Source: Thiobacillus sp.
Lineage (GTDB): Bacteria; Pseudomonadota; Gammaproteobacteria; Burkholderiales; Thiobacillaceae
Assembly: GCA_024710445.1 (NCBI GenBank)
Contig: JANJUT010000252.1
Location: 1 to 10,921 of the forward strand
DNA length: 10,921 nt
Direction: 5' to 3'
The translations under genes were made by a program, and so were the position numbers. Below are positions 1,774 through 4,080 of the stretch, one piece after another. The number at the start of each line of letters is the position of its first letter. The stretch's first letter is position 1. The notes under the pieces are model-generated. The model was given only the letters and a program-made list of their open reading frames with translations. It made no database searches and was not told the origin of the DNA.

Positions 1774-1779
1774 GGTGAT

Positions 1780-1785
1780 CACCTC
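1780..1785 (-). promoter_or_regulatory. Shine-Dalgarno site of the downstream DUF1631 gene
   Basis: GAGGTG on the minus strand lies six bases before ATG 1773 and decides the start. The site and spacer lie partly inside a perfect 10-bp palindrome (GGTGATCACC, 1774-1783). An ATCTCC segment at 1823-1818 on the same strand could pair with GGTGAT at 1783-1778 (five of six bases), so it is a candidate anti-Shine-Dalgarno for riboswitch control. The pairing is inferred by eye only. Confidence 0.6.
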
Positions 1786-1838
1786 GCGGTATCTGCGGTC
1801 GGACGGACTACGAATGGGGAGATGCGCAACCGGAAGCG

Positions 1839-1931
1839 ACCGGCGGTCCCGCTGTCTCGTGCATCCGTGGCGAATGATTGAGACCGGTAACTTTGCGTCC
1901 CCGTCTCGCGGCGGGTTTGCCCTGTTCGGTG
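1839..1931 (-). promoter_or_regulatory. Cyclic-di-GMP-I (GEMM-I) riboswitch aptamer
   Basis: Read on the minus strand, the conserved GEMM-I segments appear in order. AGGGCAAACC is at 1923-1914. A hairpin follows with arms CCCG/CGGG, a C-A mismatch and a GCGA (GNRA) tetraloop at 1909-1906. GGGACGCAAAG is at 1901-1891. A second hairpin is built from GTCTC/GAGAC (1884-1880 with 1858-1854) and an inner CATTCG/CGGATG stem. AGCGGG is at 1853-1848, where the C that contacts the ligand in known structures is expected. ACCG/CGGT (1930-1927 with 1842-1839) can close the end helix. The family binds c-di-GMP and controls motility, biofilm and c-di-GMP turnover genes. Here it sits in the leader of the downstream DUF1631 gene, 65 nt before its ATG. 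No U-run follows, so translational control is likelier than termination. The canonical 11-nt tetraloop receptor is not obvious, so docking may be looser. Confidence 0.9.
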
Positions 1932-2028: not shown

Positions 2029-4080
2029 AGGACTATTTGTTAATTGTGATTTAAGACGCAGCATGGCTTTGCGGGTAAGTGACTGCTCAGGTATGCGCGC
2101 GTGACCCGCACGTATTTCTGCTGCGAGCTGGTCGCAGTCAAGCGAAAAGCGCTGCTCGCCATCGCTGTCGCAAAACAGCATGTAGCCGCGTACCCCAACC
2201 CAGGCAACACGCGCGGTAGGGAGTCCTTCGTATGGCGGATCGAAGTCCACCCAGTCGCCCTCCATCAACTGCTCAGCCTGCAGCCGGGCGGCGTCATCCG
2301 AAGGCTCGTCGGTCAGCCTGCGGGCGAACGAATCGATTTCTTCCTGTGATACCAGCTTGGGCGTGAATGTGCTGACTCGGGTTTCCTGCCGGCCCATGCC
2401 TGGACGGATCCAGCCTTCCTGGGTGGCGGTGATGGCGCTGAAGAAATCCTTGAGCTGCGCGGGTTCGGCGCCCTGCGCCAGCAGACCGCGCCGCAGTTCG
2501 GTGTTGATCCTGGGAATCGATTGCAGGCGCGCTTCGCGCATATCCCCGTCATCCGGTGGCTGCAGGCTGAGAAACAGCTGGAGCTGGGTCGTGCAGGCAT
2601 CGCGCCAGCCTGGGCCTTCGCCTGATTCAGATACGTATAGTGAAGCCATGTAGGGAACCCAGGCCGCTTCCATGCGCCGGAGAACGGATTCTGGCGCAGG
2701 ATAACGGGCGGTCAGATCGTTCAGGTTTTCCAGCGCCAGCAGCGTGCCGAGTTCCTGTTGCTCAATATGCTCCAGGTTTGCAACTTCTGACGTCAACTCG
2801 GCCGAAGTGCGTGCGTTCTCCTCGCTCAGCCAGGTGGTTAGCGCCTGATGTGCCCGGGCAAAGGCTTCGATCTGGTGGCCTGGGTCATCGAGGACATGTG
2901 TGCAGGCTGCCTCGATCTGGGTAAGCGCCTGGAGATGTGAAGGGTTGTGTTCGGGGAAATGGCGGGAAAAGAGTCCGAGCAGATCGATCAACTGGCGCGC
3001 CGGATGCTGGTCGTCGCTGAAAAACTCGGGCGAAACGAGCGCAACCCGGAGTGCGGGAATCTGCAATTGGGCGATTTCAGATTTGTAATGCGGCGAAATG
3101 TCCGGGTCGTCGAGGATGAATTCGAACAGGCCAGCCACCGCATCCAGCACCGCCAGATCGAACGTCCCTGCATCGGTTTGCCGGGCGTCCTGCTGCAATT
3201 GTCGCAGGACGAGCGTTGCTGGGGGCTGACTGGGTCCCGAAGCGCGTGGGATGTCGGCCTGCCAACGCGCCAGGCTATCCAGAAACCCTGGCATTAAAGT
3301 GGGGAATGCGGTGCCGCTTGCCGGCGCAAATGAGCCGGCATTCCCGGACGCACCGGATTGCTCGCTGACAGCCTGGATATGCGCCAGAATTTGCTGGCCG
3401 ACATCCGAATCGCGTTTTTTGGGCGGTGAGGTGGGGGCTGCGCGCACGGTCGTGTGTTCCTCTACTCCCTGGGCACTCAAATATTGATTGAGCGCGGTGT
3501 ATGTATGTTTCAAGGTATCCCGTAGCGGTACGGCTGCACACTGCAGTATCAGGGTGCCGCTCGGGATATCGATATCCAGGCTTTCCAGTGCACGCGACAA
3601 GGCGCGCATCACAGAAAGCGGCCCATAAGTCTCAATATAGTCAGCGTTCCCGGCCACTTCCTGTTGCAAGCCCAGCAAACGGCTGAACAGCAGCAACATT
3701 TCAGGGCGCAGGGCTTCGGTCAGGTAGGCGGCCGCCTTGTCTTCGGCAAGTTGTCTGACCAGCATGGCGTCGTCCACCAGTTGCAGCGTGACGGGATGGC
3801 TGTCTGCCTGCTTGGTGACATTGTCTGGGCGGATCAGGTGTTGGCGAAACTGGTCGGCAAACGCCGTGGACAGGCTATCGGGATGCACGTCAATCCAGCC
3901 CAGGCAGGTTTGCCCGGTGGCCAGCATGGAAGGCGTCATTTGCTCCACGATGGTACGCATGATGGCATCGTGGATAAAGCTGCGGCTGCGCTGAAAGAAA
4001 TTATCCAGTGCCTGCGCCATGCGCAGGTCGGCTTCGCGCAGCAGCGCTTCAGCGGAAAGGGGGTCGGTTTGCTTGTTCAT
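2023..4080 (-). CDS. DUF1631 family protein, upstream copy
   Basis: A complete 685-residue protein with no signal peptide or membrane span. The N-terminal part (1-205) is mostly helical. Residues about 215-300 form a low-complexity Ser/Pro/Ala-rich linker. Residues 307-376 (LDAVAGLF, IAQLQIPALRVAL, FFSDDQHPARQLID) are the core shared with the downstream paralogue. The last 80 or so residues (from about 604, GDWVDF, RVAWVGVRGYMLF, LDCDQLAAEIRAG) look like a small beta-barrel followed by a helix. This end is reminiscent of a PilZ-like fold, but I see neither the RxxxR nor the D/NxSxxG c-di-GMP motif, so binding should not be assumed. ATG 4080 has only a weak ribosome site (CAGG too close to the start). 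It lies 69 nt downstream of the tRNA-Gly gene on the same strand, so co-transcription is possible. Function is unknown. Confidence 0.9.
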   Translation of the reverse strand: MNKQTDPLSAEALLREADLRMAQALDNFFQRSRSFIHDAIMRTIVEQMTPSMLATGQTCLGWIDVHPDSLSTAFADQFRQHLIRPDNVTKQADSHPVTLQLVDDAMLVRQLAEDKAAAYLTEALRPEMLLLFSRLLGLQQEVAGNADYIETYGPLSVMRALSRALESLDIDIPSGTLILQCAAVPLRDTLKHTYTALNQYLSAQGVEEHTTVRAAPTSPPKKRDSDVGQQILAHIQAVSEQSGASGNAGSFAPASGTAFPTLMPGFLDSLARWQADIPRASGPSQPPATLVLRQLQQDARQTDAGTFDLAVLDAVAGLFEFILDDPDISPHYKSEIAQLQIPALRVALVSPEFFSDDQHPARQLIDLLGLFSRHFPEHNPSHLQALTQIEAACTHVLDDPGHQIEAFARAHQALTTWLSEENARTSAELTSEVANLEHIEQQELGTLLALENLNDLTARYPAPESVLRRMEAAWVPYMASLYVSESGEGPGWRDACTTQLQLFLSLQPPDDGDMREARLQSIPRINTELRRGLLAQGAEPAQLKDFFSAITATQEGWIRPGMGRQETRVSTFTPKLVSQEEIDSFARRLTDEPSDDAARLQAEQLMEGDWVDFDPPYEGLPTARVAWVGVRGYMLFCDSDGEQRFSLDCDQLAAEIRAGHARIPEQSLTRKAMLRLKSQLTNSPA

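Follow-up and report, generated by a model that had tools for sequence, protein, structure and literature searches.

The locus and its leader

We describe here a 10,921-nucleotide (nt) stretch of Thiobacillus sp. contig JANJUT010000252.1, hereafter the window, in which a predicted cyclic di-GMP (c-di-GMP) riboswitch lies in front of a gene of the DUF1631 family; the genes and leader elements described are on the minus strand. Read along that strand, a tRNA-Gly gene (4223-4150) is followed by a first DUF1631 gene (DUF1631-A, 4080-2023), an intergenic leader and a second DUF1631 gene (DUF1631-B), which starts at the ATG at 1773-1771 and continues to position 1, where the window edge cuts it after 591 visible residues. 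Both genes match Pfam family PF07793, DUF1631-B with 455.5 bits (cut-off 33.7) and DUF1631-A with 247.5 bits. The nearest named record for DUF1631-B is Thiobacillus sp. MAG_64, at 97% identity over two fragments (L034, L037).

The leader holds four elements in succession: a putative sigma-28 (FliA)-type promoter (2004-1977), a 5' hairpin (1966-1937), a c-di-GMP-I (GEMM-I) aptamer (1930-1838) and an expression platform (1837-1774). The platform, described from sequence reading and folding tests, places 64 nt between the 3' end of the aptamer and the ATG at 1773, and includes a Shine-Dalgarno-like GCGAGGTGA at 1787-1779. The preliminary description of this locus had assigned positions 1774-1931 to the riboswitch; this interval takes in the aptamer and the rest of the leader as far as the last base before the start codon. 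To that description we add the sigma-28-type promoter, the recognition of the upstream gene as a second DUF1631, and a DUF1631-GGDEF-EAL protein encoded in the same genome. The two paralogues thus stand in tandem (window 4080-1), with the promoter-riboswitch leader on DUF1631-B only and DUF1631-A outside the predicted riboswitch transcript. A mutY-like gene, recognized by eye, lies 3' of DUF1631-B in most of the relatives looked at.

A c-di-GMP-I aptamer in the DUF1631-B leader

A cmscan search of the whole window reported a single riboswitch, at 1930-1838 of the minus strand, with the Rfam model RF03167 (c-di-GMP-I-GGC) scoring best: it reaches 65 bits (E 7.2e-14), where 59 bits are needed for gathering. 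The general c-di-GMP-I model, RF01051, matches 1931-1839 with 56.3 bits, well above its gathering score of 35, which bears out the earlier proposal of a GEMM-I aptamer in this leader. The two hairpins and the GNRA loop that had been claimed are likewise present, the P2 loop being a GCGA tetraloop within a P1/P2/P3 architecture that is backed by the Rfam models, by covariation in P2 and P3 and by individual bases.

Covariation was assessed in 38 aligned aptamers: one is that of the window, and 37 come from a set of 46 leaders belonging to other genomes. Double changes occur in 12 of 21 pairs (three of the 12 in P1) against a shuffle mean of 7.0, and 87.8% of cells pair, compared with 35-46% when the structure is slid along the alignment. 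P2 is paired in 96.5% of cells with double changes in all 6 pairs, and P3 in 99.7% of cells with double changes in 3 of 9 pairs. P1 is paired in 40.9% of cells and aligns poorly across groups, which differ by one base in where its 5' end falls. On the other side, the leader taken as a whole shows no greater stability than its shuffles do (z +0.32), and folded freely its minimum-energy structure differs from the aptamer fold. Taken on sequence, the locus is very probably a c-di-GMP-I riboswitch of DUF1631-B. It shares with the RF01051 class its architecture, GNRA tetraloop, canonical contact bases, 5' leader placement and above-threshold score, and differs in its DUF1631 target gene and in carrying a sigma-28-type promoter and a 5' hairpin ahead of the aptamer.

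The aptamer is retained among relatives. Of 34 loci encoding a DUF1631-B relative, 33 include the leader, the leaderless fragment L037 being left out of the leader counts; near-identical leaders (L008/L009/L010; the window and L034) were kept in them. An aptamer above a gathering score is found in 32 of the 33, reported as RF03167 in 22 and as RF01051 in 10, where RF03167 may score well yet fall below its higher cut-off. The sole exception, L017, gives no aptamer match even at E 10. Loss of the aptamer in close relatives, which had been named as an outcome that would speak against a riboswitch, is therefore not the pattern seen. In two relatives (L016 and L023) a tRNA lies directly upstream in place of DUF1631-A, and the aptamer stays with DUF1631-B. 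One of the relatives (L009) comes from a record titled Rhizobium sp., but its DUF1631 locus (80% identity) is of Thiobacillus type, and the record is probably a mislabelled bin.

Breadth of the riboswitch-DUF1631 pairing

A survey of RF01051 upstream of DUF1631 in other genomes, which the preliminary description had proposed, was carried out on 300 genomes drawn from the host's order, with filters that lose weak RF01051 matches. RF01051 was found in 115 of them and PF07793 in 126. Both occur in 69, made up of 36 of 58, 32 of 56 and the host's own genome; one further genome (G261) was left out of this joint count for want of an RF01051 match. Of 150 listed RF01051 places, 45 precede a DUF1631 gene on the same strand, at a distance of 135-443 nt from the first codon that PF07793 matches. 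These 45 places belong to 45 genomes and 12 families; about 0.03 such places would be expected. Scans of DUF1631 leaders in unpaired genomes with unlisted RF01051 places added two aptamers (G167 and G061); none was found by these scans before DUF1631 in G065, G033, G062, G078, G088 and G137, nor in G201 or in 12 further DUF1631 leaders. In total, an aptamer stands just upstream of DUF1631 in 47 of the 69 order genomes that hold both, across 12 families.

These counts also correct one point of the preliminary description, which had called GEMM-I better known from Vibrio, Geobacter and clostridia than from betaproteobacteria: with matches in 115 of the 300 genomes drawn, RF01051 is not rare in the host's order. 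In a second draw from the class (n = 274), PF07793 was found in 94 genomes and RF01051 in 49. Outside the order, 0 of 22 genomes with both are paired upstream among the places listed, in a by-eye comparison that leaves weak PF07793 places unlisted.

We found no mention of the pairing in the searches made of openly licensed PMC papers, supplementary tables aside. As far as these searches go, DUF1631 appears to be a new and widespread target family for a known riboswitch class. In a count restricted to this family, it takes 45 of the 150 order aptamers listed, a high proportion for a single target.

Some further aptamers came to light during the survey. In G511, a genome outside the order, a c-di-GMP-I aptamer (contig C32, 91911-91992) follows DUF1631 on that gene's strand, at a distance of 306 nt, and one genome of the class draw (G465) has 15 RF01051 matches. 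The host's own genome holds a second c-di-GMP-I aptamer on contig C263 (L006 8105-8030, minus strand; 63.7 bits for RF03167, 67.1 bits for RF01051), which precedes a gene for a subtilisin-like S8 peptidase (L006 7965-6115).

A putative sigma-28-type promoter and 5' hairpin

Upstream of the aptamer, the window contains a box of the form TCAAGTTC-N12-ACCGATAG (2004-1977) that matches the sigma-28 (FliA) consensus, TAAAGTTT-N11-GCCGATAA, at 12 of 16 positions. On its own a score of 12 says little, as it is also reached by 56 of 1999 background windows of 320 nt from the same loci (real sites included); the case for a promoter rests on conservation. All 34 Thiobacillus-type leaders, the window included, score 12-15 of 16, and the position of the box hardly varies: in most of them it lies 53 nt ahead of the aptamer core. 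Among the 46 leaders from other genomes, 16 score at least 13 and 19 at least 12, compared with 0.26% and 1.2% of 1960 control windows of 140 nt, and the spacing between box and aptamer is typical for each family (46-54 in f50, 81-87 in f40 and 82-92 in f30). A sigma-70 scan of 1700-2300 gave no promoter. In L017, the relative without an aptamer match, the box is kept (13/16) in the region 3600-4050 and the aptamer is gone, a natural knock-out of the switch.

The host genome encodes two FliA matches (E 6.3e-83 and 1.1e-81), and each of the 19 other-genome leaders with a box of at least 12 belongs to a genome whose FliA match is strong (E no higher than 1.2e-79). A strong match is absent from 6 of the 27 genomes whose leaders lack a box (G010, G022, G113, G121, G250 and G280; best E around 1e-29). 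The presence of FliA in a genome only makes the predicted use of sigma-28 possible. As far as these motifs indicate, sigma-28 control would be common, yet not required, for the riboswitch-DUF1631 pairing.

Between promoter and aptamer, the Thiobacillus-type leaders form a 5' hairpin with a mean folding z-score of -2.8 (n = 30, that is, 30 of the 33 relatives, without L009, L017 and L031); in the window its stem (1966-1937) was read by eye.

Expression platform and direction of control

A ribosome-binding site is present in the Thiobacillus-type leaders. No terminator-like site was found on the minus strand of 1700-2300; one lies on the plus strand, at 2099-2113. We infer translational control from folding tests on 66 leaders, 33 of Thiobacillus type (the window, L085 and all relatives except L017 and L031, which makes 31 of 33) and 33 of the 46 others, with start codons picked by script. 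When the aptamer fold is enforced, accessibility of the ribosome site falls in 31 of the 66 leaders and rises in 7. Shuffled platforms give on average 17.8 leaders that fall and 14.4 that rise, and none of 16 replicates reaches the real mean change; the same holds for the other leaders taken alone (0/16). The folding data provide a modest signal for an OFF switch, modest because the leaders are related.

The model that we consider probable on balance is a FliA-transcribed c-di-GMP-I leader that turns translation of DUF1631-B off. The leader would be transcribed from its own sigma-28 promoter (2004-1977), giving a transcript with the 5' hairpin, the aptamer and the 64-nt platform ending in the ribosome-binding site. 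Binding of c-di-GMP would let the aptamer fold and make the ribosome-binding site less accessible. DUF1631-B would then be produced mainly in flagellated cells low in c-di-GMP, as a motile-phase component of the c-di-GMP network. A c-di-GMP-I riboswitch ahead of the flagellar flgB operon of C. difficile reportedly acts by transcription termination; there too c-di-GMP switches off a motility-linked transcript, as proposed for the window, whereas the region searched in the window is free of terminator-like sites on its minus strand.

Several observations weigh against this model. When the Thiobacillus-type leaders are taken by themselves, the real change in accessibility is reached in 3 of 16 shuffle replicates, and the 66 leaders are related sequences rather than independent ones. 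Neither of two candidate mechanisms for the platform held up: anti-Shine-Dalgarno pairing is no better than in shuffles (mean z +0.28, n = 33; window +1.36), and for the candidate anti-P1 helix 5 of 40 column shuffles do equally well. No box of at least 12 is found in 27 of the 46 other leaders; such a box is present in no leader of seven families (f11, f14, f15, f23, f29, f3 and f33), in 1 of 5 in f35 and in 3 of 4 in f1. L017 keeps the promoter box but has lost the aptamer, and no pairing was found in 22 of the 69 order genomes holding both partners.

The same riboswitch and promoter could also form an ON switch, with DUF1631-B production requiring both active FliA and high c-di-GMP, as at first surface contact or in the transition from swimming to settling. 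Both ON and OFF switches are known among GEMM-I riboswitches, an ON switch behind a flagellar promoter would yield a sharp transition signal, and 7 of the 66 leaders do open their ribosome site on aptamer folding. The OFF-direction change in 31 leaders, above that of shuffled platforms, points the other way, and we regard an ON switch as rather unlikely.

Ligand class and other roles for the RNA

A further alternative is that the aptamer binds another ligand, with RF03167 perhaps representing a variant of unknown specificity. RF03167 does outscore RF01051 in the window (65 versus 56.3 bits), and it is the model reported in 22 of the 32 aptamer-bearing relatives, with RF01051 in the other 10. 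In the RF03167 consensus, model positions 10 and 37 are G and position 75 is C; from this consensus, GGC in the model name would stand for G10, G37 and C75, the middle G being position 37. The window has G, A and C, so that at position 37 it carries the canonical base rather than the G of RF03167. In Vc2 numbering, the presumed ligand-contact bases of the window are G20, A47 and C92, all of canonical c-di-GMP type. In the 38 aligned aptamers, A47 (model position 37) and C92 are invariant, and G20 is kept in 37, with C in L071. RF03167 is therefore the best-scoring model, yet not a safe label for this aptamer, because the window and the aligned aptamers hold the canonical A at position 37. We infer c-di-GMP as the ligand and consider a different one improbable. 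The cyclic AMP-GMP variant of GEMM-I, which has A at position 20, was also considered and set aside, since the window has G there.

It is very improbable that the RNA is mainly a c-di-GMP sponge with an incidental downstream gene, the role suggested for merRNA in attack-phase Bdellovibrio, since the aptamer tracks DUF1631 across 12 families and the Thiobacillus-type leaders carry a ribosome-binding site, whereas merRNA, in the part of the source consulted, has no conserved open reading frame downstream (PMC3627812). As described there, merRNA is a c-di-GMP riboswitch RNA expressed in massive amounts and proposed to store c-di-GMP; most promoters of the cell state in question are FliA-type, although no FliA box is marked for merRNA in the paper's table (PMC3627812). 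On that description, it is the nearest earlier case of such an RNA being expressed within a FliA-type motile programme.

DUF1631 proteins and c-di-GMP domains

Full-length relatives of DUF1631-B mostly have 720-785 residues (in L012 the frame is broken at 190). The predicted structure of DUF1631-B (mean predicted local distance difference test score 78.6) is mostly helical with a small C-terminal barrel. A sequence search gave no solved homologue (best E 0.7). When the barrel was compared with the PilZ fold, the Foldseek and VIA matches listed were mostly Tudor/SH3-type barrels plus a TraI domain.

Other members of the family also connect it to c-di-GMP. The third DUF1631 of the host's own genome (contig C181, L004) belongs to a 1320-residue DUF1631-GGDEF-EAL protein. 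Its N-terminus looks PilZ-like by eye, with no Pfam PilZ match, and contig C181 has no RF01051 match. Eleven further DUF1631 loci were fetched, and 8 of these, picked mainly for length, were scanned for domains (all but L138, L140 and L142). Six of the 8 proteins contain GGDEF and EAL domains, of which three also have PilZ over the cut-off and a fourth just under it; the remaining two, of which one is linked to a riboswitch, consist of DUF1631 alone. A PilZ gene directly follows DUF1631 in at least 2 (G463 and G311) of 28 genomes searched. Fusion to GGDEF-EAL and PilZ ties the family to c-di-GMP independently of the switch. The link between DUF1631 and c-di-GMP signalling, first suggested by the single riboswitch, is thus supported both by these fusions and by the order-wide pairing (47/69).

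Pfam lists DUF1631 as a family of unknown function, and some public DUF1631 records bear the name 'thymidine phosphorylase'. We did not adopt the name PacR for DUF1631-B: NCBIfam NF058594 gives 162 bits against a cut-off of 1200, and no PacR paper on the family was among the matches listed. In Pseudomonas resinovorans, according to the part of the source consulted, a gene annotated as thymidine phosphorylase precedes a PilZ gene (PMC9765421).

Implications for the DUF1631 family

The GGDEF-EAL and PilZ fusions, one GGDEF-EAL fusion being in the host's own genome, suggest that DUF1631 acts on the very signal that would control DUF1631-B. We tentatively propose that DUF1631 is an unrecognised c-di-GMP signalling family, whose stand-alone betaproteobacterial member may sit in a two-key circuit (transcription by FliA, translation by the riboswitch) and form a feedback loop at the swim-to-settle decision. 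The family is widespread, with PF07793 in 126 of 300 order genomes and 94 of 274 genomes of the class draw, and the combination of a conserved c-di-GMP switch with fusion to c-di-GMP enzymes makes its open function testable. The flagellar-type promoter would give the riboswitch a physiological setting, and the recurrent switch-gene pair may tie the DUF1631 family to the choice between swimming and settling.
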